Source: an uncultured Clostridia bacterium
Lineage (GTDB): Bacteria; Bacillota; Clostridia; UBA1381
Reading direction: 5' to 3'
Assembly: GCA_947631085.1 (NCBI GenBank)
Contig: CANRJY010000009.1
Location: 1-64,000, forward strand
Length of the DNA: 64,000 nucleotides
The position numbers and the translations under genes were made by a program. The notes beneath the pieces were generated by a model that saw only the letters and a program-made list of their open reading frames with translations, had not been told where the DNA came from and did no database searches. Below are positions 939 to 55,968 of this stretch, in pieces. How positions within the stretch are numbered: the first letter of the stretch is position 1; the number at the start of each line of letters is the position of its first letter.

Positions 939-3284
939 ATGACATTAAAGGAACTTGAAATCGGAAAATCGGCAATCATAACCGCCGTAGGCGGAGAGGG
1001 CGCGCTCAGGCAGCACTTTCTTGACATGGGCGTTATTCCCGACGCGGAGGTTACGCTAGTAAAATACGCGCCTATGGGCGATCCTATGGAGCTTTTGATA
1101 CACGGCTACGAGCTTACGCTTCGGCTTGACGACGCGGAAAAAATAGAAATAAAGCCTGTAGATACAACAACGGAAAAAGCCGCGGACAAAAGCGACAGAC
1201 GCAGACGCGAGCACCCGGGTCTCGGCGAGGGCGGACGCTTTCACGAAAAGAAAAGCGAAAATCCGCTTCCGAAAGGGACGGTGCTGACATTCGCGCTCGC
1301 GGGCAACCAAAACTGCGGCAAAACCACGCTTTTTAACCAACTCACCGGCGCAAATCAGCATGTCGGCAATTTCCCGGGCGTAACGGTAGATAAAAAGAGC
1401 GGTCCAATACGCGGCGACACGCATACGCTCGTGACGGATTTGCCCGGCATTTACTCGCTTTCGCCCTACAGCAGCGAGGAGATCGTGACGCGTCAATTCA
1501 TTCTCGACGAAAAGCCCTACGGCATTATAAACATCGCCGACGCGACTAACATCGAGCGCAATTTATACCTCACAATGCAGCTTATGGAGCTTGACATACC
1601 TATGGTTCTCGCGCTCAACATGATGGACGAGGTACGCTCGAACGGCGGCGCGGTTTACATAAATGAGATGGAGGAAATGCTCGGAATACCCGTTATCCCG
1701 ATATCGGCGGCGAAAAACGAGGGTATCGGCGAGCTTATAAGCCACGCGATGCACGTCGCGCAGTATCAGGAAAAGCCGCGTCCGACAGACTTCTGCGGAC
1801 CTGAAAATAACACGGCGGCAGTTCACCGCTGTCTGCACGCTATTATGAGCCTTATCGAGGATCACGCGGAAAACGCAGGAATACCTCCGCGCTTCGCCGC
1901 GAGCAAGCTCGTAGAGGGCGACGAGATAGTCACCGAAGCGCTGAAGCTTTCGGACAGGGAAAAGGAAATCGTAGAGGAAATAATATGTCAAATGGAAACT
2001 GAGCGCGGGCTTGACCGAGCGGCGGCGATAGCGGATATGCGTTTCACATTTATCAAGAGCATATGCGAAAAATGCGTAGTCCGTCCGCGCGAGAGCAAGG
2101 AGCACGAGCGAAGCCGCAAAATCGACGCTGTTCTGACGGGCAAATACACGGCTCTGCCCGCGTTTATCGGGATCATGGCTTTGATATTTTGGCTTACGTT
2201 CAACGTGATAGGCGCGTGGATGCAGAGCGCACTCGAAAGCGGAATAGATTTGCTTACAAATCTCGCAGACCAAGCGCTCGGGGCGTGGCATGTAAACACG
2301 GTGTTGCACTCGCTTATAGTGGACGGCATTTTCAACGGCGTTGGAAGCGTATTGAGCTTCCTTCCGATTATCGTGACGCTGTTTTTCTTCCTGTCTCTTT
2401 TGGAGGACAGCGGCTACATGGCGCGCGTGGCGTTTGTTATGGACAAACTGCTCAGACGCATAGGCTTGTCGGGCCGAAGTATAGTTCCTATGCTTATCGG
2501 CTTCGGCTGCACAGTCCCGGGAGTTATGGCAAGCCGCACTCTGCCGTCGGCGAGGGACAGAAAAATGACGATTATGATGACGCCGTTTATGAGCTGTACC
2601 GCGAAGCTGCCCATCTATGCGTTTCTGACAGCCGCGTTTTTTCCGAAATACGGCGGTCTGGTAATGATAAGCCTGTATATTATCGGTATACTCGTCGGAA
2701 TACTTTTCGCGCTGATATCGCGTAAGATCCTGTTCAAGGGCGAGGCTGTACCGTTCGTAATGGAGCTTCCCAACTACCGTATGCCGGGCGCAAAAAACGT
2801 CGCGCGGCTTTTATGGGACAAAGCGAAAGACTTCTTGCAGCGCGCTTTTACGGTAATATTCGTTGCGACGATCATCATATGGTTTTTACAGACGTTCGAT
2901 ATGCGCCTTAATCTCGTAGATAATTCAAGCGAGAGCATACTCGCCGCTATCGCGGGAGTGATAGCTCCGATTTTCAAGCCTTTAGGCTTCGGCGACTGGC
3001 GCGTTTCCACGTCGCTTATCGCGGGATTTATGGCGAAGGAAAGCGTTGTTTCGACCATATCGGTGCTTTTCGGAAGTACGGCGGCGATGATAGAGACTAT
3101 AACACCGCTCGCGGCAATGTCGCTTCTTGTATTCTGCCTGTTATATACGCCGTGCGTCGCGGCGGTATCGTCGATAAAACGCGAGCTCGGCGGAAAATGG
3201 GCGTTCTGTATCGTCGTAATGCAGTGCGCGATAGCGTGGGTATGCGCGTTTATTGTGAGATTGATCGGTATGATTTTTGTATAA
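939..3284 (+). CDS. feoB: FeoA-FeoB fusion ferrous iron transporter
   Basis: This 781-residue protein joins a FeoA (SH3-like) domain at about residues 1-75 to a full FeoB GTPase and permease. A charged linker follows the FeoA part. The G-domain starts near residue 120 (GNQNCGKTTLFNQLTG) and continues with DLPGIYSLSPY (G3) and NMMD (G4). The membrane part from about residue 395 carries the two Gate repeats and the conserved segments GYMARVAFVMD and GCTVPGVMASRT. FeoB moves Fe2+ across the inner membrane using its GTPase domain. In most Clostridia FeoA is a separate peptide; here it is fused in frame with no sign of a frameshift. A second, unfused feo operon lies at 17.1-19.9 kb. GGGGGCGG precedes the ATG by about six bases. 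Confidence 0.95.
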   Translation: MTLKELEIGKSAIITAVGGEGALRQHFLDMGVIPDAEVTLVKYAPMGDPMELLIHGYELTLRLDDAEKIEIKPVDTTTEKAADKSDRRRREHPGLGEGGRFHEKKSENPLPKGTVLTFALAGNQNCGKTTLFNQLTGANQHVGNFPGVTVDKKSGPIRGDTHTLVTDLPGIYSLSPYSSEEIVTRQFILDEKPYGIINIADATNIERNLYLTMQLMELDIPMVLALNMMDEVRSNGGAVYINEMEEMLGIPVIPISAAKNEGIGELISHAMHVAQYQEKPRPTDFCGPENNTAAVHRCLHAIMSLIEDHAENAGIPPRFAASKLVEGDEIVTEALKLSDREKEIVEEIICQMETERGLDRAAAIADMRFTFIKSICEKCVVRPRESKEHERSRKIDAVLTGKYTALPAFIGIMALIFWLTFNVIGAWMQSALESGIDLLTNLADQALGAWHVNTVLHSLIVDGIFNGVGSVLSFLPIIVTLFFFLSLLEDSGYMARVAFVMDKLLRRIGLSGRSIVPMLIGFGCTVPGVMASRTLPSARDRKMTIMMTPFMSCTAKLPIYAFLTAAFFPKYGGLVMISLYIIGILVGILFALISRKILFKGEAVPFVMELPNYRMPGAKNVARLLWDKAKDFLQRAFTVIFVATIIIWFLQTFDMRLNLVDNSSESILAAIAGVIAPIFKPLGFGDWRVSTSLIAGFMAKESVVSTISVLFGSTAAMIETITPLAAMSLLVFCLLYTPCVAAVSSIKRELGGKWAFCIVVMQCAIAWVCAFIVRLIGMIFV

Positions 3285-16767: not shown

Positions 16768-17100
16768 ATTCCCGCCCCCTTTTCTTGTATAATACCATGA
16801 AATTCTTTATATTTTACTCGGATAATTCTTAAGATTTTATTAAGATTGCGTACTGTTTTTGATTTTATCATAACTGCAAGGCGGCAGCGTCGCCGCGGCG
16901 TTATTATATCACAAAACGTCGTTTCTTTCAAGCTGACGGCTTTAAAACATTTATTTTAAAAAATTTCAAAAATGCTATTGACAAAATTTCTTAATTGTAG
17001 TATTATAACATCTGTTAGCGGCGAATAACCTATATTATGTATAACTAATATATTTTATTCAATGCATATAAAAGTTTTATATAGATTACGGAGGGAGTGT
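16768..17100. promoter_or_regulatory. Divergent intergenic region (response regulator / feoAAB)
   Basis: This 333-base AT-rich gap separates divergent operons. A promoter for the feo operon is at 16978-17006 (TTGACA, 17 bases, TATTAT), about 95 bases before feoA. That leaves an untranslated leader in which I see no clear riboswitch. No confident promoter for the regulator gene and no Fur box could be picked out by eye. Confidence 0.5.
16978..17006 (+). promoter_or_regulatory. Promoter of the feoA-feoA-feoB operon
   Basis: TTGACA (16978-16983) and TATTAT (17001-17006) are separated by 17 bases. Confidence 0.6.
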
Positions 17101-17316
17101 ATGACTATGCCATTATCAATGGTGGATATCGGTGAAACGAAAAACATAGTTAAAATAACCGGAAAGGACGAAACGCGCCGTTTTCTGGAAAACCTCGGCT
17201 TCGTCGAGGGAACGGAAGTAACGGTAGTTTCGGCTATTTCGGGAAACATGATAGTAAACGTCAAAGACGCGCGTGTCGCGATTGACAGATCTATGGCTAA
17301 CAGAATAATGGTATAA
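17101..17316 (+). CDS. feoA: FeoA domain protein, first copy
   Basis: This 71-residue protein is a small SH3-like FeoA domain, a partner of the FeoB iron transporter. The ATG at 17101 follows a GGAGGGAG site; a reading from an in-frame ATG at 17062 would have no such site. The sequence shows the usual turn LENLGFVEGTEVTVVSA and ends ANRIMV. It is the first gene of feoA-feoA-feoB, 16 bases before the second feoA. The two FeoA proteins are clearly different in sequence, so they are not a recent duplication. Confidence 0.88.
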   Translation: MTMPLSMVDIGETKNIVKITGKDETRRFLENLGFVEGTEVTVVSAISGNMIVNVKDARVAIDRSMANRIMV

Positions 17317-17332
17317 AAAGGGAGGTTTAAAT

Positions 17333-17554
17333 ATGAAAACATTACGAGACGCGAAAATCGGCGAGACAGTCAGGGTGCTGAAGCTCGACGGTGAAGGCGC
17401 GGTTAAGCGGAGAATTATGGACATGGGCATCACCAAAGGCGTGGACGTGTTTGTCCGCAAGGTCGCGCCGCTCGGCGATCCGATCGAAGTAACCGTGAGA
17501 AATTACGAGCTTTCAATAAGAAAAGCCGACGCTCAGATGGTATTGGTGGATTGA
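17333..17554 (+). CDS. feoA: FeoA domain protein, second copy
   Basis: This 73-residue FeoA domain protein has the typical core GEGAVKRRIMDMGITKGVDV and LGDPIEVTVRNYELSIR. It resembles the FeoA part of the fusion protein at 939 more closely than it resembles its neighbour at 17101. It precedes feoB by 20 bases, with AAGGAGG before the next start. FeoA is cytoplasmic and thought to modulate FeoB. Confidence 0.9.
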   Translation: MKTLRDAKIGETVRVLKLDGEGAVKRRIMDMGITKGVDVFVRKVAPLGDPIEVTVRNYELSIRKADAQMVLVD

Positions 17555-17574
17555 AAACAAGGAGGTACATATAA

Positions 17575-19746
17575 ATGGCAATAAAAATCGCGCTTGCCGG
17601 AAACCCGAACTCCGGCAAAACAACATTATTTAACGCATTAACAGGCTCAAATCAGTACGTCGGCAACTGGCCCGGCGTTACGGTCGAGAAAAAAGAGGGA
17701 CGCTTAAAGGGCAGAAAAGACGTTATAATCGAGGATCTGCCCGGTATTTACTCGCTCTCCCCGTACACTCTCGAGGAGGTCGTAGCGAGAAATTACCTTA
17801 TAAACGACAGACCGGACGCGATATTGAATATCGTTGACGGCAGCAATTTGGAAAGGAATCTCTACCTCACAACACAGCTTACCGAGCTTGGCATACCTGT
17901 TGTCATGGCTGTAAACATGATGGACGTTGTCAACAAAAAAGGCGACAGGATAGATATGTCCAAGCTCGGCAAAGCACTGGGATGCGAGGTCGTCGCAATT
18001 TCCGCGCTCAAAGGCACGGGAGTTAAGGAGGCGGCGGATAAGGCTGTCGCGGCGGCTTCCGGAAAGCCGTTCAAAGCGGTTCATACGTTTGACAATAAAA
18101 TAGAGGGTTATCTTAATAAAATCGCGGAAAAGCTGGATAATTCGATCCCCGAAACACAAAAGCGCTTTTACGCGATAAAACTCTTCGAGCGCGACGACAA
18201 AATCGCGTCTCAGCTTAAGTCCGTTCCCGACGCCGAGGAAATAATCGCGGCAGCCGAAACGGAACTGGACGACGACAGCGAAAGCATCATCACAAACGAG
18301 CGTTACACATATATTACGTCGATAATCGGCGGCTGTTACAGGAAAAAGAGTACGGCGGCGAAAAACAGTCTTTCCGACAAAATAGACAAAATCGTCACAA
18401 ACAGAATACTCGCCCTTCCGATTTTCGCGGCTGTAATGTTTATAGTGTACTACGTTTCGGTAACGACGGTCGGAACGTGGGTCACGGACTGGATGAACGA
18501 CGGAGTTTTCGGCGAAAGCTGGAGCTTGTTCGGACTTGAGATCCCCGGTATACCCGTACTTATAGGAAACGCGCTCGAGGCGCTCGGCACGGCGGAATGG
18601 CTCAACAGTCTTATCCTCGACGGCATTGTCGCCGGAGTGGGCGCGGTGCTCGGATTTGTACCGCAAATGCTCGTGCTGTTCATATTCCTCGCGTTTTTGG
18701 AGGGCTGCGGCTACATGGCGCGTATCGCGTTTATCATGGACAGAATTTTCAGACGCTTCGGTCTGTCGGGCAAGTCGTTTATACCCGTTCTTATCGGCAC
18801 GGGCTGCGGCGTACCCGGAATTATGGCTTCGCGTACGATTGAAAACGAGCGCGACAGGCGCATGACTATTATGACCACGACGTTTATCCCCTGCGGCGCG
18901 AAGCTCCCGATTATCGCGCTTATCGCGGGCGCTCTGTTCGGCGGCGCGGCGTGGGTCGCTACAAGCGCGTATTTTGTAGGTATTGCGGCGATAATCGTTT
19001 CGGGAATTATACTCAAAAAGACGAAGATGTTCGCGGGCGATCCCGCGCCGTTCGTGATAGAGCTTCCCGAATACCATCTTCCGACGGTCGGCAGTATATT
19101 GCGCAGTATGTGGGAGCGCGGCTGGTCGTTTATCAAAAAAGCGGGAACGATCATCCTTCTCGCTACGATACTCATATGGTTCCTGCAAGGCTTCGGCGTT
19201 GAGGACGGCTCGTTCGGCATGGTCGAGGATATGAACAACTCAATTCTCGCGGCGATAGGAAATATAATCGCTCCGATATTCGCGCCGCTCGGCTGGGGCG
19301 ACTGGAAGGCGGCTGTCGCGGCAGTCACGGGACTTATCGCGAAGGAGAACGTCGTCGGCACGTTCGGCATACTCTACGGCGGCTTCGAGGAGGTCGCGGA
19401 GGACGGCTACGAGGTATGGACAAATCTCGCGATGAACTTCACGCGTCTTTCCGCATACTCGTATCTCGTGTTCAACCTGCTCTGCGCTCCGTGCTTCGCG
19501 GCAATAGGCGCGATAAAGCGCGAGATGAACAGCGCGAAATGGACGTGGTTCGCGATTGGCTGGCAGTGCGCGCTCGCTTACGCGGTATCACTGTGCATCT
19601 ACCAGCTCGGTACGCTCTTTACCGGCGGCGGCTTCGGAATAGGCACTGCTGCGGCAATACTTATCGTGATTGGATTTATATATCTGCTTCTCCGTCCGTA
19701 TAAGGAGAGCACGCGTTTGGGCGTTAAGGGCGGACTTAAGGCATAG
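17575..19746 (+). CDS. feoB: Ferrous iron transport protein B
   Basis: This 723-residue FeoB has a G-domain at its N terminus (GNPNSGKTTLFNALTG near residue 8, DLPGIYSLSPYTLEE, NMMD), a GDI-like helical spacer, and the membrane permease from about residue 280. The conserved motifs GYMARIAFIMD and GCGVPGIMASRT match those of the fused FeoB at 939. It is the main gene of a feoA-feoA-feoB-FeoB-associated operon. Its close paralogue 14 kb away may differ in metal (Fe2+ or Mn2+) or in regulation. The ATG follows AAGGAGG. Confidence 0.95.
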   Translation: MAIKIALAGNPNSGKTTLFNALTGSNQYVGNWPGVTVEKKEGRLKGRKDVIIEDLPGIYSLSPYTLEEVVARNYLINDRPDAILNIVDGSNLERNLYLTTQLTELGIPVVMAVNMMDVVNKKGDRIDMSKLGKALGCEVVAISALKGTGVKEAADKAVAAASGKPFKAVHTFDNKIEGYLNKIAEKLDNSIPETQKRFYAIKLFERDDKIASQLKSVPDAEEIIAAAETELDDDSESIITNERYTYITSIIGGCYRKKSTAAKNSLSDKIDKIVTNRILALPIFAAVMFIVYYVSVTTVGTWVTDWMNDGVFGESWSLFGLEIPGIPVLIGNALEALGTAEWLNSLILDGIVAGVGAVLGFVPQMLVLFIFLAFLEGCGYMARIAFIMDRIFRRFGLSGKSFIPVLIGTGCGVPGIMASRTIENERDRRMTIMTTTFIPCGAKLPIIALIAGALFGGAAWVATSAYFVGIAAIIVSGIILKKTKMFAGDPAPFVIELPEYHLPTVGSILRSMWERGWSFIKKAGTIILLATILIWFLQGFGVEDGSFGMVEDMNNSILAAIGNIIAPIFAPLGWGDWKAAVAAVTGLIAKENVVGTFGILYGGFEEVAEDGYEVWTNLAMNFTRLSAYSYLVFNLLCAPCFAAIGAIKREMNSAKWTWFAIGWQCALAYAVSLCIYQLGTLFTGGGFGIGTAAAILIVIGFIYLLLRPYKESTRLGVKGGLKA

Positions 19747-19944: not shown

Positions 19945-20391
19945 CTATTTCATCAAATATTTTTCCGCTATGCGCGCGCAGTCCTCAATGCATCTCACGC
20001 ACGGACGTTTTTTATAAAATTCGGAAGTCCTCTCCTCCGCTCTCGCTCCGTTATCCTTCGGCATTGACGAGCCGAGAAGCTCCGAGCAAATAATCGAGCC
20101 GTTCCTGTTCTTAAACTCATCCGACATTTCCCGCACCGTTTTGTAGATAAGCGTTTTTGTTTCAACATCGCCCGCCTTCGCTTCACTGTATTTCAGTCCT
20201 GCCAAAACTGCCATTCCCGCGACGGCGCCGCATGTCAGACGCATTCGTCCGAGCCCTCCTCCGAGAGGCTCCGTCGCTTTCATGATAGTTTCAAAATCCG
20301 CGCCAAGCGCCTCGCAGAACGCGCCCGCTACCGACTGCGAACAATTATATCCGGATTTGAACAAGTCGACCGCTTTTTGTACTCTGTCCAT
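19945..20391 (-). CDS. C_GCAxxG_C_C family redox-type protein
   Basis: This 148-residue protein has the cysteine pattern of the C_GCAxxG_C_C family: NCSQ near residue 17, the CGAVAGM signature near residue 54, and the C-terminal pair CVRCIEDC near 133. Family members are putative redox-active or metal-binding proteins, often near oxidoreductases; none has a firm function. It is the last gene of the minus-strand cluster, two bases after the adenylating ligase, so it is probably made with that pathway. Confidence 0.8.
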   Translation of the reverse strand: MDRVQKAVDLFKSGYNCSQSVAGAFCEALGADFETIMKATEPLGGGLGRMRLTCGAVAGMAVLAGLKYSEAKAGDVETKTLIYKTVREMSDEFKNRNGSIICSELLGSSMPKDNGARAEERTSEFYKKRPCVRCIEDCARIAEKYLMK

Positions 20392-20393
20392 AG

Positions 20394-21914
20394 CTATTTT
20401 ATTATCAAATTCCTCTTTATCTTTTTTGACGATGTTTTTTCAAACTCCGTATCTCTCCAAACAACACCGTGTATCTGCTTTGCCGCGGGCAAGGTATCGT
20501 TAATACGGTCTATTTCAGCTTGTATCTCCGCTTGTATGTTGTCCGATTCGTAATCGGGATTGGGATATATCTGCGCCGTAATTACTCCGTCCTTATCGTA
20601 TACGACCATTTCCTTTATCGGCTCGAACGCCGCGAATATGTTCTCAATCTCCTCCGGCGATACGTTCTCGCCGTTATCGAGTATGATCAGATTCTTCTTT
20701 CGTCCCGATATGAACACATAGTTATCCTTAACATATCCCAAATCGCCCGTCATTAACCAACCGTCCTCGGTCAGAGCCTTCGCGGTTTCTTCGGGATTTT
20801 TATAATATCCAACCATTATTGACGGACTTCTCGCCCATATCTCGCCGTCCACGATTTTTACCTCGCAGCCCTCGACGATCCTTCCGACCGACTCGGGATA
20901 CGGACAATCCTTGACGCCCGTGCTTATTCGAGAAGCCGTTTCCGTCATTCCGTAGCCCTGCGCGATCTCGATTCCGAACTCGGCATAGCCCTTGATGATT
21001 TCGGGGCTCAGATACGCTCCGCCCGCGAAGAGAATTTCGAAATCCTCGCCGAATACCGCTTTGCCGACTGCGATTTTATCCGGATTTTTCTTTGCTTCCT
21101 GACGCATTTTATTAAGTATCGAGGCGGCAATCATCGGCACGAATGTAGTCTCGTGCGGCTTGTACGCCTGCAGATTTTTCGGTATTCGCATAAGCGAGTC
21201 ATTCACGCATACGGTCCTTCCGTACCAAAGCGCCGTGAGAATATCGCATGTAAAGCAGAATATATGATGTATCGGCAGTATCGAAAGCCTTCTGTGTCCG
21301 TGATATCCCCTATCCGGCTCGCATGTGGCGTTATCCGCAAAATTGGCGTGGGAAAGCATTACTCCCTTGCTCTGACCGGTAGTGCCTGATGTGAATATGA
21401 TCGCGGCTATCATTTCAGGAGTGATTTCCGTTTTCGGCTCACAGCCCGCGTATTTTTCAAGTATTCCCGAAAGCGGTACTGTACCCGGGTAATCCGAGTG
21501 CATATGCACAACGACCTTCACCTGCGGACAGAGTTTTTTTAATTCCTCAACGCAGGATTCGCGCTTTTCGTCAATAAATATAACCTCCGAATCGGAACGG
21601 TTGATCTCATCAGCAAGCGCCTCAACGCTGTTTACGACCGCCAGCGGAACAGACACGCCGCCGCTCAGCACCGCGCCGAACCAACCGATTATAAACTCAT
21701 AGCTCGTCGCGCCGAATATAGCCGAATGCACCGCGCGTCCGAACGTGTCCTCGAACCACGCCGCGACGGCGTTCGCGTCACGCCTGAACTCGTTAAAGCT
21801 TTTATCGATAAATTCCTTCTTGACGTGCGTTCTGAAAAACGGCTCGTCAGAAAACCGCGCGGCAGCTGTATCAACAAGATCCCGCAGCGTTTTTATATTT
21901 TCACGCGAAAACAT
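20394..21914 (-). CDS. AMP-binding adenylate-forming ligase
   Basis: This 506-residue enzyme belongs to the ANL superfamily of acyl-CoA synthetases and NRPS adenylation domains. It activates a carboxylate as its AMP ester and transfers it to a thiol. Motifs in order: FTSGTTGQSKGVMLSH (phosphate-binding loop), GYGMTETAS, TGDLGYV, SGRKKNLIILDNGENVSPEE, and the C-terminal catalytic lysine in SSKKIKRN. I chose the ATG at 21914 because AGAGG lies seven bases upstream. The acyl carrier protein gene ends 28 bases before it, so the acceptor is probably that ACP rather than CoA. It resembles long-chain acyl ligases more than amino-acid-activating domains, but the substrate cannot be read with confidence. 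Confidence 0.88.
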   Translation of the reverse strand: MFSRENIKTLRDLVDTAAARFSDEPFFRTHVKKEFIDKSFNEFRRDANAVAAWFEDTFGRAVHSAIFGATSYEFIIGWFGAVLSGGVSVPLAVVNSVEALADEINRSDSEVIFIDEKRESCVEELKKLCPQVKVVVHMHSDYPGTVPLSGILEKYAGCEPKTEITPEMIAAIIFTSGTTGQSKGVMLSHANFADNATCEPDRGYHGHRRLSILPIHHIFCFTCDILTALWYGRTVCVNDSLMRIPKNLQAYKPHETTFVPMIAASILNKMRQEAKKNPDKIAVGKAVFGEDFEILFAGGAYLSPEIIKGYAEFGIEIAQGYGMTETASRISTGVKDCPYPESVGRIVEGCEVKIVDGEIWARSPSIMVGYYKNPEETAKALTEDGWLMTGDLGYVKDNYVFISGRKKNLIILDNGENVSPEEIENIFAAFEPIKEMVVYDKDGVITAQIYPNPDYESDNIQAEIQAEIDRINDTLPAAKQIHGVVWRDTEFEKTSSKKIKRNLIIK

Positions 21915-21942
21915 ATTATACCTCTTTTCCTTCCCCTGAAAA

Positions 21943-22167
21943 TCACTTCTGTCCTTCCAAATACGCAATCAATTCCTCTACGGTTTTGCATTTGCCCGCC
22001 TCATTTTCATCTATTTCCACGTCAAACTCGTCCTCAGCGTCGCCGAGCATACACATGAAATCGTAGGAATTAAATCCCAAATCCTCCGAGAAATGTGATT
22101 TTTCCGTTATTTCGTCCTCGTTTACCTCTACATAATTGCATATAAGCGCTTTTAATTGTTCCAGCAT
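21943..22167 (-). CDS. Acyl carrier protein
   Basis: This 74-residue acidic protein is a stand-alone phosphopantetheine carrier. The serine that takes the cofactor is in LGFNSYDFM (about residue 33), where most fatty-acid ACPs have DSLD, so it is a specialised carrier rather than the housekeeping AcpP. It sits between the condensation-domain gene and the ligase gene, and should carry the acyl group activated by the ligase. An AGGAGG site precedes the ATG. No phosphopantetheinyl transferase gene is in the window. Confidence 0.88.
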   Translation of the reverse strand: MLEQLKALICNYVEVNEDEITEKSHFSEDLGFNSYDFMCMLGDAEDEFDVEIDENEAGKCKTVEELIAYLEGQK

Positions 22168-22192
22168 TTTGTTATCCTCCTTATTTATTTAC

Positions 22193-22212
22193 GGGCGGAC
22201 ATGATCCGTCCC
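22193..22212. repeat. Dispersed short palindrome, copy 2
   Basis: GGGCGGACATGATCCGTCCC lies between the condensation-domain and ACP genes. It is a diverged relative of the palindromes at 16048 and 34488. Confidence 0.45.
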
Positions 22213-22225
22213 TGTTTCCGATTCA

Positions 22226-23635
22226 TCAAACCATATCCTTTATTTCCTCAACCGTCGCATTCGGATTCTCGATACTTCTGAACAGCACGCGTCCGAGATA
22301 GTAATACAAAAATTCTATCTCATTCGGCGTCGCGATGTCGCTCTGATATCCGAAGTGGAACGTAAGACCGCCGTCGCTCGGGCGATGCATCGCTGTCAGA
22401 TAAAATGCCTGCGGCTGCTTTCCGCTTGAATACCAGTAGCTTTTGTACGGTATATCCCTTAAATACGGAACTATGCTTTTCAGCGTAGCCGGCTGATATG
22501 TAAAGCCTATGCTCTCATATCCGCCTCTCGGGGCGTAGCCGTACGTTTCACGCTGTATTCTGTAAAACGTCATCGGACCGTATTCAGAATGCTTAAACAT
22601 CTCGTTCTGAGCTTTGTCGATTTTCGCCATTGATTCAAGCACCGTGTCGGTCGGCTCGACTATGGTTCTCAGCGTCATGCAGTGCATCCGCACTCCGCCG
22701 CATTTTTTCGCGAGCAGCGTTGAGCGACGCGCAACGAAGTCCTTTATGCACACGTCCTTTTCATCGTTATTGAATTTTGACAAAACAGTGCGCAGTCCGT
22801 GCAGAAGCAGCACACTTACGGGGAATCCGTATTCCTCGCAGAAATCCACAAGCTTCTTCGTTGAATCAACATCAAGGTCATACGTTACCGTGCTTCCCAC
22901 AGCGTCGCGTGAAATCAACGCCGCTGCGCGCTGATTTGGATTTTTGTTCTCCAATCTCTGAGCATACAGTCTGCCCGGGCCTGTGAAATCGGTATAAATC
23001 GGCTCGTCGCGCGCAAACTGTTCCATCCAGTATTTTTCATCAGCATCCTTCTTTTTGCATCCCGCCATATACTCCATGTCCTTCTTGACCGACTCGATAT
23101 ACGACGTCATAGGCTTAGGATACGGCAGATCATAGCGCAGACTGCAGTAAATATCCATAACATCGCGGCTGAACGCAATAATAGAAGCCGCGTCCATAGT
23201 CGCGTGGTGAACATTCATATAAAAACCGTTCCATCCGTCCGGCATTGACACAAGAACTATGCGCGATAACGGGCCGCCGAACGTGTCGAAAGGCTGACTT
23301 GTCCAGCCGTCAAGAATATCCTTTACCTTTTCCTCCGTTAAATCCGAAAAATCATAATACTCGAAATATTGATTCTCATACGGCATAACATACTGCCATA
23401 TCTGCCCCGTTTCAGGCTCCTTCCAAAGCCTAAGCCTCATCGTTTCGCAGCGCGATACGGCGCGGTTCAAAGCTTCCCTGAGAATTGACAAATTCATATC
23501 CATTTTAAGATATCGTCCCGTACCGAGATTTACTATCTCCTGTGTCGGACTGAATGTCATTGTATACAGATGCAGCATCTCCGCTTCCGTAATCGGGTAG
23601 CAGTCGCGTTTAATTCCGCCGATAATTTTCTCCAT
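22226..23635 (-). CDS. Stand-alone condensation-domain acyltransferase
   Basis: This 469-residue protein has the chloramphenicol-acetyltransferase-like fold of NRPS condensation domains. The catalytic motif HHATMDA (HHxxxDx) is intact near residue 144, and a DFVARRS-like segment follows around residue 300. There are no attached carrier or adenylation domains. It heads the cluster with the ACP and ligase, so it probably joins the ACP-bound acyl group to an amine or alcohol. Alternatives are a lipid-forming acyltransferase of the WS/DGAT or PapA type. GGAGGG precedes the ATG. Confidence 0.8.
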   Translation of the reverse strand: MEKIIGGIKRDCYPITEAEMLHLYTMTFSPTQEIVNLGTGRYLKMDMNLSILREALNRAVSRCETMRLRLWKEPETGQIWQYVMPYENQYFEYYDFSDLTEEKVKDILDGWTSQPFDTFGGPLSRIVLVSMPDGWNGFYMNVHHATMDAASIIAFSRDVMDIYCSLRYDLPYPKPMTSYIESVKKDMEYMAGCKKKDADEKYWMEQFARDEPIYTDFTGPGRLYAQRLENKNPNQRAAALISRDAVGSTVTYDLDVDSTKKLVDFCEEYGFPVSVLLLHGLRTVLSKFNNDEKDVCIKDFVARRSTLLAKKCGGVRMHCMTLRTIVEPTDTVLESMAKIDKAQNEMFKHSEYGPMTFYRIQRETYGYAPRGGYESIGFTYQPATLKSIVPYLRDIPYKSYWYSSGKQPQAFYLTAMHRPSDGGLTFHFGYQSDIATPNEIEFLYYYLGRVLFRSIENPNATVEEIKDMV

Positions 23636-23866
23636 TGATTATCCCTCCGTTCTGATAATGAAATAATATTCAAATAATATACAGTTATTATTCTTACACT
23701 ATTCCCCGCCAATTCCTATATTTTCTTATTTCAGTTTACCATATATATTCCGCGATGTCAATTAAAACATAGCATTATTCACAATTTCTTCATAATATAT
23801 TTGACCGGTTTTGTCATTTACGATACCGGTGAAATATGTTATACAACTCCGCATAAATAATAAAAA
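23636..23866. other. AT-rich intergenic region upstream of the condensation cluster
   Basis: This stretch separates the condensation-cluster start from the GH2 operon terminator. It must hold the minus-strand promoter of the cluster, but I see no convincing -35/-10 pair and no gene. Confidence 0.4.
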
Positions 23867-33471: not shown

Positions 33472-34458
33472 ATGACAGGGCGAGAAGAACGAGAGTATAA
33501 GGCTGAGCAGCAGATGGAGGAGCTCATCAAGGATCAGCCGGACTATATTTCCGGCTTTTATTATTATATGGATTTCCACGAGCATACGACGCGCGCGGTA
33601 TATGTAAGGAAAATCATAAAATTTCTGAAGGATCTCGGCAAGGACATTGAGTTTATTGATATGGACGACATATCGCAGTATATATCAAGGCTCAAAAAGA
33701 AAAACGGCGAAGCCGCGTCTGACTCATACAAGACCGGAACATACGCGGCGCTCAAAGATTTTTTCAACTATCTTATGCGCTCCGGAAGAATAGCGGTTAA
33801 CCCTATGGTAAACACCGTCTCGCCGAAGCGGAAAAAGAGCTCGGATGTTGGCAGAACGGATGTGTTAAACCTCGAGGAAACGCAGAGATATCTGTATCAA
33901 GTCGAGCACGGAATAGGCACGTCGAAGGCGCGCAAGCATCAGCACGCATGGAAGGAGCGCGATATTGCAATTATCACGCTGTTTCTCTATACGGGCATGC
34001 GCTGCTCGGCGCTGACGGAGATAAACATCGGCGATATCGATGTGAAGCGCAAGCGCATTGTGTCGGTAACGAAAGGCGGATACACAAAAGAATTTGAGCT
34101 CAACGGCGAGTGCATGGACTATCTCTGCGCGTGGATGGCGAAAAGAGCGCATATTCTTAACGGCGTCAACTGCGACGCACTATTTATATCAAACAAGAAA
34201 AACCGCATAAGCCCGCAGGCTGTAAGCAATATCGTCAAGAAATACGCGGCAAATATCAGCGGCAAACGCATTACGCCGCATAAGCTGCGCGCAACCTACG
34301 GAACATATCTGTATCAGCAGACCGGCGATATATATTTCGTAAGCCGCTGCATGGGACACGCATCCATCGACACAACGAAAATTTACATACGCGGCATAGA
34401 AAATCCGACACAGCGCGCCGCCAATATCATGTCGGGATTAATAGGGCGAAAGGATTGA
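33472..34458 (+). CDS. Tyrosine recombinase (XerC/D-like integrase)
   Basis: This 328-residue protein has a SAM-like core-binding domain (about 35-110) and a catalytic domain. The latter holds TGMRCSALTEI (first Arg, about 176), HKLRATYGTYLY (His and second Arg), CMGHASIDTTKIYI (second His and nucleophile Tyr near 305). All catalytic residues are present. It starts behind AAAGGAGGG. No excisionase, phage or plasmid genes and no obvious att repeats flank it, so it could be a chromosomal Xer-type protein or the last trace of an integrated element. Next to it is the serpin gene, whose promoter overlaps its stop codon. Confidence 0.87.
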   Translation: MTGREEREYKAEQQMEELIKDQPDYISGFYYYMDFHEHTTRAVYVRKIIKFLKDLGKDIEFIDMDDISQYISRLKKKNGEAASDSYKTGTYAALKDFFNYLMRSGRIAVNPMVNTVSPKRKKSSDVGRTDVLNLEETQRYLYQVEHGIGTSKARKHQHAWKERDIAIITLFLYTGMRCSALTEINIGDIDVKRKRIVSVTKGGYTKEFELNGECMDYLCAWMAKRAHILNGVNCDALFISNKKNRISPQAVSNIVKKYAANISGKRITPHKLRATYGTYLYQQTGDIYFVSRCMGHASIDTTKIYIRGIENPTQRAANIMSGLIGRKD

Positions 34459-34531: not shown

Positions 34532-36187
34532 ATGAAAAAACCTATTAAAAAAATAATTTCCGCTATACTTGCGTGCGCGACGGCGTTCGCGATCGTGCCT
34601 GTCATGGCGGAGGACGATATAACGGTGACGGTGGACGGAAAGAAGCTTGACTTTGACGTGCCGCCGATCATGGAAAACGACCGCACTCTTGTGCCGCTTC
34701 GGATGATATTCGAAGCGCTCGGCGCAAAGGTGCAGTGGAACGAGGAAGATCAAATTGTTTCCGCGGTGATGGAAACCGGTAAAATGAGCACCGGAATTAC
34801 CCAAACGTCAATTTCTTTGACCATCGGCAGAAGCGAAATGTTTAAAAAGGTCACGGAGCTAAAGCTGGCTGCGAACGAATCCGGCGGCAGCGAAGCCGTA
34901 TCGGATATTATCGGAAACGAAACCATAACTCTTGACGTTCCCGCAAAAATTATCGGCGACCGCACTCTCGTGCCGCTCAGAGCCGTATCGGAGGCGTTCG
35001 GCGCAAATGTGGAATGGGACGAGACTTCAAGCTCGGTAACAATAACATCCGCTCCCGAGCCCACTGCCGCTCCCCAATCACAGCCCGAGACAAAGCAGGC
35101 TACTCTCGCGCAGAAGCTTATGGCGCATATGCCGCACGACCAAAATTATATGCTCTCGCCGTTTTCGCTCAGAATGGCGCTGATGATGGCGGCAAACGGA
35201 GCATCGGGCGAAACGAGAAAGGAAATTCTCGGCGCGCTCAATATTGACGAGACTAACGTGGGCGATTATAACGACTACGCGCTGTCGTTTGTCGAGTATA
35301 TCGAAAACGCAAAGAAGTTAAATTCCGAGACCGCGGACGACGAGTATAAGCGTCCGGAGTTCGCGCTCGCAAATTCAATTTGGTTAAACGAAGATATTCT
35401 GCCGGAAGCGAAATTTTCAAAGGAATTTGAGGACTTGATTATAAACAAGTACGGCGGAACGTCCGAGACGGTCAATAATTCAAACGCGGTCGAGCGCGTA
35501 AACGGCTGGGTAACGGAAAAGACGAACGGCAATATAAATAACCTTATCGACAGCCCCGATTTTCTCGCGGCAATCGTGAACGCGATTTATATGAAGGCTC
35601 AATGGGAGAGCCAATTCCCCGAAAGCGCGACGAAAAAAGACACATTCACCGACAGAAACGGCAAGAAGACCGAGCTCGATTTCATGGAGCAGACGGGACA
35701 TTTCTATTACTACGAAAACGAAAACACGGAAATAGTCCGCCTGCCGTATTACGGGGGCTTGAGCGCGTACTTCATAATCGGCGACATGATAGATATTGAG
35801 CATCAAAACTTTGATTCAGGATTTAAAACCGTCCATGTAAAAATCCCGAAATTCCGTCTTGACAGCAGCTTGGATTTAAAAGACATACTTGAGGAATTGG
35901 GCGTAAAAAAGGCGTTTATAAAGGATTCCGCCGAATTTTCGCCTATGTTTGAAAACTCCGAGGCGTATATAGACAGGGTTATACAGAAAACGCATATAGA
36001 CATGAACGAAAACGGAACGGAAGCCTCCGCGGCGTCTGTTGCGTTGATGGCTCCCACAAGCGCGGCGCCCTCCGGCACGCCCGAGCCTGTAATGGAATTT
36101 GTAGCCGACGAACCGTTCGAGTTCTACATCTGCGACGACGAAACGGGCGAGATATTCTTCATGGGCGAGTACGCGTTCCTTGATTGA
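34532..36187 (+). CDS. Secreted serpin with stalk (copper-amine-oxidase-N-like) domains
   Basis: This 551-residue secreted protein has a signal peptide (about 1-26, ending VMA). Next come two stalk-type repeats resembling the copper amine oxidase N-terminal domain, each with a DRTLVPLR motif (near residues 49 and 146). A short Pro/Gln linker leads to a full serpin fold from about residue 185. The serpin hinge ENGTEASAASVAL has the small-residue pattern of inhibitory serpins, and the C-terminal EFYICDDETGEIFFMG matches the family. It should trap serine or cysteine proteases outside the cell. The reactive loop is Pro/Ser/Ala-rich, so the target protease cannot be read off. Serpin fused to stalk repeats is uncommon. 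Confidence 0.9.
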   Translation: MKKPIKKIISAILACATAFAIVPVMAEDDITVTVDGKKLDFDVPPIMENDRTLVPLRMIFEALGAKVQWNEEDQIVSAVMETGKMSTGITQTSISLTIGRSEMFKKVTELKLAANESGGSEAVSDIIGNETITLDVPAKIIGDRTLVPLRAVSEAFGANVEWDETSSSVTITSAPEPTAAPQSQPETKQATLAQKLMAHMPHDQNYMLSPFSLRMALMMAANGASGETRKEILGALNIDETNVGDYNDYALSFVEYIENAKKLNSETADDEYKRPEFALANSIWLNEDILPEAKFSKEFEDLIINKYGGTSETVNNSNAVERVNGWVTEKTNGNINNLIDSPDFLAAIVNAIYMKAQWESQFPESATKKDTFTDRNGKKTELDFMEQTGHFYYYENENTEIVRLPYYGGLSAYFIIGDMIDIEHQNFDSGFKTVHVKIPKFRLDSSLDLKDILEELGVKKAFIKDSAEFSPMFENSEAYIDRVIQKTHIDMNENGTEASAASVALMAPTSAAPSGTPEPVMEFVADEPFEFYICDDETGEIFFMGEYAFLD

Positions 36188-38213: not shown

Positions 38214-39716
38214 TTATTCCGCACCTTTTTTAACTTCCTCCGCATGAGCCTTCTGAATATCGGGATGCATTGAAAGCATAGGCTCGACGTTTTTATGCCT
38301 GAAGTGCCTGTCAACATAATTCTTCGTGCATTCGTATACAAGCGGAGAAAGGACGAGAACACCGATAAGGTTCGGGAGCATCATAAGTCCGTTGAACGTG
38401 TCGGATAAATCCCAAGCTAAGTTTTCACCCATCAGCGCGCCGCCTAGGATAGCGACAACGAATATAACTCTGTACGGCATTGTTGATCTTGTGCCGAACA
38501 TATACTCGCATGCCTTTGTTCCGTAGTGGCTCCAGCCCAGAAGCGTCGAGAACGCGAACAGCAGAAGCGCGGCCGCGACAAACATCGATCCTATCTGACC
38601 GAACGTCTGACCGAAAGTTACGCCAACAAGCGAGCCTGTATCGGTGATCGATGTGTCGGCAAGCATGCCTGTATTAAGGTCGATAAGACCGGACGAGAGA
38701 ACGGAAAACGCGGTCAATGTGCAGACAACTATTGTATCGGCGAATACCTCGAATATGCCCCACATGCCCTGACGGACAGGCTCTCTTACGTTTGAGTTGG
38801 AGTGAACCATAACCGACGAGCCGAGACCCGCTTCGTTAGAGAATACGCCGCGCTTCATGCCCATTTGAACAGCCATCGCAACGCCGGAGCCGACGATACC
38901 GCCGCCCACTGCTTTAAGACCGAACGCGCCCTTGATTATAGACGAGAAAACAGCGCCGAACCGGTCAATATGCAAAATGCAAATAACGACCGTGCCTATG
39001 ATGTAAAGTATAACCATGAACGGAACGATTTTTTCCGTAACAGCCGCAATTCTCTTGATACCGCCTACGATAACGAGACCCGCAAGAAGCATTATTGCAA
39101 GACCTGTAACAATCTTCGGAATACTGAACGCCGACTGCATATTTATTGCGATCGTGTTTACCTGCATCATGTTTCCGATACCGAACGACGCCAAAAGACA
39201 GAAGCACGAGAACAGCACCGCGAGAACAGCGCCTATCTGCTTGCATCCCTTCTTCGAGCCCAAGCCGTACTTTAAGTAGTACATAGCTCCGCCGCTCCAT
39301 TCGCCATTCTTGTTCTTGATTCTGTAGAGAATACCGAGAACGTTTTCCGAAAAGTTTGTCATCATGCCGAAAAACGCGATTGCCCACATCCATAATACAG
39401 CACCCGGTCCGCCGGTTACGATTGCCGACGCAACGCCCGCGATATTACCCGTTCCGACAGTCGCCGCGAGAGCCGTGCAAAGACTCTGGAACTGCGAAAT
39501 GGATTTGTCTTTGGTGTGCTTTGTTACTTGTTTGTCCTTGAAAATCGCGCCGATTGTGTTCTTGAACCAGTGTCCTATATGCGACAGCTGAAAAAACTTG
39601 GTAAGACAAGTCATCAATACGCCCACAAACGCGAGAAGAATAAGAGCGGGCCAGCCCCATACTACGCCGTTTACAGCGTCGTTGACCTTCTCAACAACAC
39701 TTAAAAAACCTTCCAT
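38214..39716 (-). CDS. Alanine/glycine:cation symporter (AGCS family)
   Basis: This 500-residue transporter has about 11 membrane helices and the AGCS signatures ATVGTGNIAGVA (near residue 83) and MGMKRGVFSNEAGLGSS. It imports alanine or glycine with Na+. I chose the ATG at 39716, behind GGGGAG; an upstream in-frame ATG at 39752 lacks a site. The gene lies behind a glycine riboswitch and leader terminator, so glycine is likely its substrate and signal. Confidence 0.93.
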   Translation of the reverse strand: MEGFLSVVEKVNDAVNGVVWGWPALILLAFVGVLMTCLTKFFQLSHIGHWFKNTIGAIFKDKQVTKHTKDKSISQFQSLCTALAATVGTGNIAGVASAIVTGGPGAVLWMWAIAFFGMMTNFSENVLGILYRIKNKNGEWSGGAMYYLKYGLGSKKGCKQIGAVLAVLFSCFCLLASFGIGNMMQVNTIAINMQSAFSIPKIVTGLAIMLLAGLVIVGGIKRIAAVTEKIVPFMVILYIIGTVVICILHIDRFGAVFSSIIKGAFGLKAVGGGIVGSGVAMAVQMGMKRGVFSNEAGLGSSVMVHSNSNVREPVRQGMWGIFEVFADTIVVCTLTAFSVLSSGLIDLNTGMLADTSITDTGSLVGVTFGQTFGQIGSMFVAAALLLFAFSTLLGWSHYGTKACEYMFGTRSTMPYRVIFVVAILGGALMGENLAWDLSDTFNGLMMLPNLIGVLVLSPLVYECTKNYVDRHFRHKNVEPMLSMHPDIQKAHAEEVKKGAE

Positions 39717-39811
39717 TTGAATATACTCCCCTATCTTTATTAATTTTTTCATAACCCTGATAAATAACGCGAAACGCGCGCGAAGAAAAAGGTATTGTTA
39801 AAAATCTCACA

Positions 39812-39847: not shown

Positions 39848-39884
39848 CAATAAAAGGGGTCGATATATAAGGCTTACCGCCCGA

Positions 39885-39975
39885 ATATCTCCGTCCTTTT
39901 GCCTGAGAGATTGGCGCGTACAGCGCCGTACACCTTCGGCACCCTTTTGAGGGCTTCTCCGGAGCGTTACCGATA
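39885..39975 (-). promoter_or_regulatory. Glycine riboswitch (single aptamer)
   Basis: The minus strand carries the hallmark segments GGGTGCCGAAGG and CTCTCAGGCAAAAGGACGGAG around a variable GTACGGCGC/GCGCC helix. Both are specific to glycine aptamers. Only one complete aptamer is seen; further leader structure upstream (to about 40040) may be the partner or ghost domain of a singlet riboswitch. It precedes the AGCS symporter. Glycine switches can turn transporters on or off; the terminator downstream suggests transcriptional control. Confidence 0.88.
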
Positions 39976-55274: not shown

Positions 55275-55769
55275 TTATTTCTTAGTCGCTTTCGCTGCCG
55301 GTTTTTTTGCCGCCGCCTTCTTCGCGGGTTCAGCTTTTTTTACCGCTGCCGCTTTCTTTGCGGGCTCAGCCTTCTTAACTGCCGCCACTTTCTTCTCCGC
55401 GGGTTTTGCAGCTGTCGCTGCCTTCTTCGCGGGCGCTTTCTTTTCTGCCTTCGGAATGACGGATCTAAGCGCGTCAACTTTAGCCGCGTCGCCATAAACC
55501 GAACCGTTGCATTCAGCGAGAGCCTTGTCAAGACTTGATCTTCTGCCGAGATAGCCGAGCAACGCCGATTTTGATATGTTAACAGCCGCATTGTTGTCGT
55601 GGTAGTCATACGGCTCTACGGCCAACACACCATTCTTTATCTCTGCATAGAATGTTCCGCCGCAGTCCTCGTCAGAAAACGTAATTTGGATAGCCAAATC
55701 ACCTACTTTGCTCGCGTCTGCGCCGTTAAACTTTTTCTTAATGCTATCAAAAGCCTTTTCAAATGTCAT
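55275..55769 (-). CDS. SCP2-type protein with Lys/Ala/Pro-rich histone-like tail
   Basis: This 164-residue protein begins with an SCP2-like lipid-binding fold (about 1-105; TFEKAFDSIKKKF, then FYAEIKNGVLAVEPYDYHD). It then has about 55 residues made of AKKA/AEPAKKAA repeats ending KATKK. Tails of this kind are found in bacterial histone H1-like proteins and some ribosome or nucleoid proteins, and bind nucleic acid non-specifically. I chose the ATG at 55769, behind AAGGAGG. What the hybrid does is unknown; lipid or acyl-chain binding at the nucleoid would be a guess. Confidence 0.75.
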   Translation of the reverse strand: MTFEKAFDSIKKKFNGADASKVGDLAIQITFSDEDCGGTFYAEIKNGVLAVEPYDYHDNNAAVNISKSALLGYLGRRSSLDKALAECNGSVYGDAAKVDALRSVIPKAEKKAPAKKAATAAKPAEKKVAAVKKAEPAKKAAAVKKAEPAKKAAAKKPAAKATKK

Positions 55770-55968
55770 CTTACAGTTTCCTCCTTTCGTAGGGTACAAA
55801 AAATAACATTCATTACCTTTTGCTCAAAGAATTATTAACAATTATTTAATAACTCTGTAAAAATTATACTCCTAATTTCATCTGTTGTCAACTGTACAAT
55901 TTGCCGATAAAACAGGGATTTTTATATGAAAATCAGTCATTTTTTTACTTTTGTCCGATTTTTGGCGG

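Follow-up and report, generated by a model that had tools for sequence, protein, structure and literature searches.

A stand-alone condensation-carrier-ligase operon, very probably of the fatty acid amide synthase type, in an uncultured Clostridia bacterium

Background

Four minus-strand genes in tight order were found in a 64,000-nucleotide stretch of DNA from an uncultured Clostridia bacterium (the whole of this stretch is referred to as the window). They encode a stand-alone condensation domain protein (C), a carrier protein (T), an adenylating ligase (A) and a protein of the C_GCAxxG_C_C family, and they raise the question of what such a set would make and whether all four genes take part in making it. 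A sequence-only reading had proposed a minimal thiotemplate route to an N- or O-acylated small molecule or lipid and had not recognised it as a known pathway.

Operons of a stand-alone C protein, an acyl carrier protein (ACP) and a ligase that make fatty acid amides (FAAs) have been known from gut Clostridia since a 2021 report (Chang et al., as cited in PMC13142362 and PMC13060934). A crystal structure of one such C protein, OaaC, followed in 2026; OaaC works alongside a separate ligase and ACP and joins acyl-ACP to aminovaleric acid, and its homodimer opens with holo- or acyl-ACP, a behavior shown for OaaC only (PMC13142362). Isolates of Blautia and Coprococcus that carry the CTA operon had higher acyl-ethanolamide levels, and levels were higher in Blautia with the operon than in Blautia without it (PMC13060934). 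The pathway type has thus been in the literature since 2021, and the OaaC structure and the Blautia work have since been added to it.

Results

Gene content and operon structure

All four open reading frames were intact and co-linear on the minus strand, and profile searches placed each in its proposed family well above the cut-offs. The C gene (22226–23635) encodes 469 aa with a single condensation domain (PF00668, E = 2.2e-36), in which HHATMDA was aligned at residues 143–149, intact as had been read. T (21943–22167) is a 74-aa carrier protein (PF00550, E = 8.5e-11) with its carrier serine in LGFNSYDFM. A (20394–21911) is an AMP-forming fatty-acid/acyl ligase of the ANL type (505 aa; PF00501, E = 9.5e-58, and PF23562), and the core motifs attributed to it were all present (FTSGTTGQSKG, YGMTET, TGDLG, SGRKKN and a C-terminal KTSSKKIKRN). 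Its top NCBIfam scores were to long-chain-fatty-acid-CoA ligases, yet below the cut-offs of those models. The fourth gene (19945–20391) belongs to PF09719 (E = 2.8e-33) as proposed, although its motif actually reads CGAVAG, C_GCAxxG being the name of the family.

T lies between C and A, with 58 and 31 bp between the genes. The ligase most likely starts at ATG 21911 rather than at TTG 21968, because relatives share the ribosome site and the ATG, and the ligase gene would therefore not overlap the ACP gene. A sigma-70-like promoter, TTGACA-17-TAAACT, was read directly from the minus strand upstream of C (23733–23761). A similar TTGACA-17-TA(A/C)ACT also precedes C in relatives with unrelated flanks (L006, L007, L009, L011, L012 and L064), and the operon was therefore taken to begin at C. 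An Rfam search of the operon returned no matches.

Conservation and proposed mobility of the C-T-A unit

Related loci were located in public genomes, and C, T and A occurred in this order in 53 of the 57; three of the exceptions were cut by contig ends, and in the other, L021, the ACP was not found in the 384 bases left. Most of the hosts carried the label Oscillospiraceae, Ruminococcus or unassigned Clostridia, and rabbit, deer and goat guts were the source of many. DNA similarity between the window and relatives at 61–94% protein identity ran from just before the start of C to the ligase stop codon, and outside these limits was confined to a 67-bp upstream stretch common to one species of the same genus. 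That C-T-A is kept as exactly three genes amid unrelated flanks marks a functional boundary.

The window C protein was 86–89% identical to proteins from other genera, against 57–71% for Spo0A and 70–77% for a methionine-gamma-lyase-like protein in those genera, and other genomes within the same genera had either no C protein or only a 34–35% version. These identities, and the patchy presence of C within those genera, fit a horizontal transfer of the three-gene unit.

In four loci from rabbit-gut genomes (L006, L008, L009 and L010), non-coding inserts of approximately 320–415 bp with many short inverted repeats were observed between T and A, the flanking genes being intact.

Relationship of the C protein to OaaC and to NRPS condensation domains

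When the C protein was searched against the PDB, 12kh_A was matched at E = 2.9e-87 over residues 8–467, and the next-best match was at 1e-7. This entry is titled "Condensation Domain Protein", has 465 aa and carries the motif DHRLMDS. The PDB table lists it without a gene name, and its identification here as OaaC, the oleoyl-aminovalerate synthase of Coprococcus eutactus, is our own, made because its length, the DHRLMDS motif and an insertion helix at the offset published in PMC13142362 point to that protein. In alignments of C proteins, on which kinship to the OaaC system was measured, the window protein was 32% identical to OaaC and its close relatives up to 35%, as against 16–21% between the window protein and ten NRPS C domains that included those of its own genome. 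A 17-residue insertion in OaaC (helix at OaaC 214–224), which covers the would-be adenylation interface (PMC13142362), aligned gap-free in the window protein and its relatives and was missing or gapped in the NRPS C domains. In a tree that took these ten NRPS C domains, none of them a confirmed starter domain, as the comparison, the window protein, OaaC and 32 relatives fell on one branch with support of 100/99.

HHATMDA agrees with the published FAA active-site rule, (D/H)HxxxD with S or A, rather than G, usually in the next position. Among 127 FAA domains the motif was xHxxxD(S/A), with S in the last position in 42% and A in 36% (PMC13142362). The organization of a canonical NRPS module, with C fused to A and a PCP and with an acceptor PCP, was not found, C being a 469-aa single-domain protein with one carrier nearby. 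A plasmid search for window-type C proteins gave only NRPS C domains at 20–22% as best matches. PDB searches matched the ligase and the ACP only to general ANL enzymes and housekeeping ACPs, and found no solved relative of the C_GCAxxG_C_C protein.

A sister clade with an upstream hydrolase gene

The window clade has the active site HHxxMD(A/S), and its sister clade (L025–L061) has DHMTMDS. In every sister-clade locus with upstream sequence (L025–L060), an alpha/beta hydrolase gene (approximately 325 aa, hydrophobic N terminus) lay directly upstream of C, as did one in the deeper locus L126 (L126:647–1492). A TetR gene was often divergent from the hydrolase gene, and an SCP2 lipid-binding gene followed A in six loci (L025, L038, L041, L042, L057 and L060). 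None of these three genes was found near the window C-T-A or in the OaaC-like loci L123–L125, and a search of the window genome for the hydrolase gave no close copy (best E = 1.7e-4). No mention of the upstream hydrolase was found in the literature searched, a body that did not take in the 2021 founding paper. The hydrolase gene is a possible accessory gene of the sister-clade FAA operons.

A protein encoded elsewhere in the window (55275–55799) has an SCP2-like alkyl-sulfatase C-terminal domain and shares 34% identity with the SCP2 protein found downstream of A in some of the sister-clade operons.

Discussion

Probable assignment to the FAA synthase class

As judged from homology and gene order, the C, T and A genes of the window very probably form a C-T-A-type FAA synthase operon. 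The unit is a divergent member of the known FAA C-T-A class of gut Clostridia and is, at the level of the class, already explained; the genes thus fall to a characterised cluster type, and assignment to a characterised cluster had been named beforehand as an outcome that would refute the earlier reading. Of the minimal thiotemplate route to an N-acylated small molecule or lipid, the part played by C, T and A is upheld as a prediction and that of the fourth gene is not.

The reaction, the fatty acyl donor and the amine acceptor proposed for the window clade are drawn by analogy from the work on OaaC and Blautia. The ligase would activate a free, probably exogenous, fatty acid at the expense of ATP and transfer the acyl group to the phosphopantetheine of the dedicated ACP. 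In C, a small amine arriving by free diffusion would then attack the acyl thioester, and the fatty acid amide would be released, such that both an acceptor carrier and a thioesterase would be dispensable.

The OaaC/OaaACP/OaaA system (PMC13142362; PDB 12kh) is alike in its three stand-alone proteins, the full-length homology of C, the insertion helix and the lack of an acceptor carrier and a thioesterase. It differs in that C is only about 33% identical and in the motif, HHATMDA in the window against DHRLMDS in OaaC; genomes within the window's own family have closer relatives of OaaC, at 54–58% (L070–L072). The CTA operon described in Blautia wexlerae and further Lachnospiraceae (after Chang et al. 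2021) is made up of these three genes, again with T in the middle, but the survey in question (human isolates, 70% identity cut-off) found it in Lachnospiraceae only (PMC13060934), whereas the relatives found here mostly carry other Clostridia labels. The FAA gene unit is thereby extended to a divergent clade beyond the Lachnospiraceae reported from human isolates. Lipo-initiating (starter) C domains of NRPS, described as the class nearest to FAA C domains (PMC13142362), likewise have the general C-domain fold and take an acyl donor, but they act within multidomain synthetases, where the donor is an acyl-CoA and the acceptor an amino acid bound to a PCP. The products of FAA operons are hormone-like lipids with activity on human and animal receptors (PMC13142362, PMC13060934), and the window operon opens no new kind of biochemistry.

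Alternative interpretations

Membership of the fourth gene in the pathway, for example in redox tailoring of the acyl chain or the amine, would be suggested by its position on the same strand 2 bp past the ligase stop, from which co-transcription with C-T-A is probable. When the same four-gene order was sought in other genomes, as had been recommended, C-T-A recurred but the C_GCAxxG_C_C gene adjoined it in none of the other loci, with at least 600 bp of sequence downstream of A in 48 and at least 2 kb in 42. DNA similarity also ends at the ligase stop codon, relatives in the same genus included, and C_GCAxxG_C_C homologues, found in 41 of 61 related genomes, are unlinked to C-T-A and often present in genomes without it. 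A four-gene pathway was accordingly considered very improbable, and because the gene adjoins C-T-A nowhere else and its homologues are unlinked in relatives, it was judged to be a chance neighbor rather than a pathway component. The carrier might instead be the housekeeping ACP and the genes ordinary lipid metabolism, and its nearest NCBIfam models are indeed those of AcpP, though it scored under their cut-offs. The AcpP of this genome, however, has a DSLD motif, shares 33% identity with the window carrier and is encoded on contig C1 within a plsX-fabH-fabK-fabD-fabG-acpP-fabF-rnc run, by which this reading, the second of the outcomes named beforehand, is refuted and its probability reduced to almost nil. 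The window carrier is by sequence a dedicated ACP distinct from the housekeeping one, and either of two phosphopantetheinyl transferase genes in the genome could prime it. Its N-S-Y carrier motif, previously described as unusual, is the norm in this family, N-S-Y/F being nearly universal among the ACPs of related C-T-A loci. The earlier remark that no NRPS or fatty-acid genes are near is correct within the window; the genome itself does have the fab operon with its own ACP on C1 and an NRPS locus on C2. The latter (G000:C2:80000–106000; L001, L002, L004 and L112) is of an ordinary kind: it encodes a 2453-aa protein containing two C domains and has an adjoining phosphopantetheinyl transferase gene.

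With C-T-A read as an FAA synthase operon, the acceptor and the biological role were weighed further. An alcohol acceptor (giving an O-acyl product), an amino-acid acceptor or a non-fatty acyl donor is possible. The proposal that HH...DA marks a different acceptor class, such that the unit would N-acylate an amino acid or make an ester rather than the amide of a simple amine, draws on the separate, supported branches formed by the window clade and by the sister clade and OaaC with their DH motifs; since either D or H already occurs first, and either A or S last, in published FAA domains, and since OaaC-type enzymes are reported to exclude amino acids (PMC13142362), it was thought distinctly unlikely. 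Also unlikely, if somewhat less so, is a broader scheme in which the HHxxMD(A/S) clade, mostly of animal-gut Oscillospiraceae-type Clostridia, would be a branch that has evolved separately, moves horizontally and acylates another acceptor class than known FAA enzymes do, and in which the sister clade would be a four-gene system whose alpha/beta hydrolase frees the fatty acid for conjugation. A more serious contender, to which we would give a little less than an even chance, is that the selected function is fatty-acid detoxification or scavenging, the amide being a harmless by-product and not a host signal. Free fatty acids are toxic to Blautia and conjugation to amines relieves that toxicity (PMC13060934), and identical enzymes would suit either role; by analogy, the cell may benefit here too from relief of toxicity. 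This reading departs from the FAA synthase assignment in biological role only, and the chemistry would be the same.

Other features of the window

Two FeoB systems were noted, one a FeoA-FeoB fusion (939–3284) and the other a feoA-feoA-feoB set (17062–19746), which is followed by a gene for a small Cys-rich protein converging on the C-T-A operon. A serpin with an N-terminal copper-amine-oxidase-N1 domain (34532–36187) adjoins a phage-type integrase (33472–34458). On the minus strand, a glycine riboswitch (39881–39972) was located upstream of a sodium:alanine symporter gene (38214–39752).
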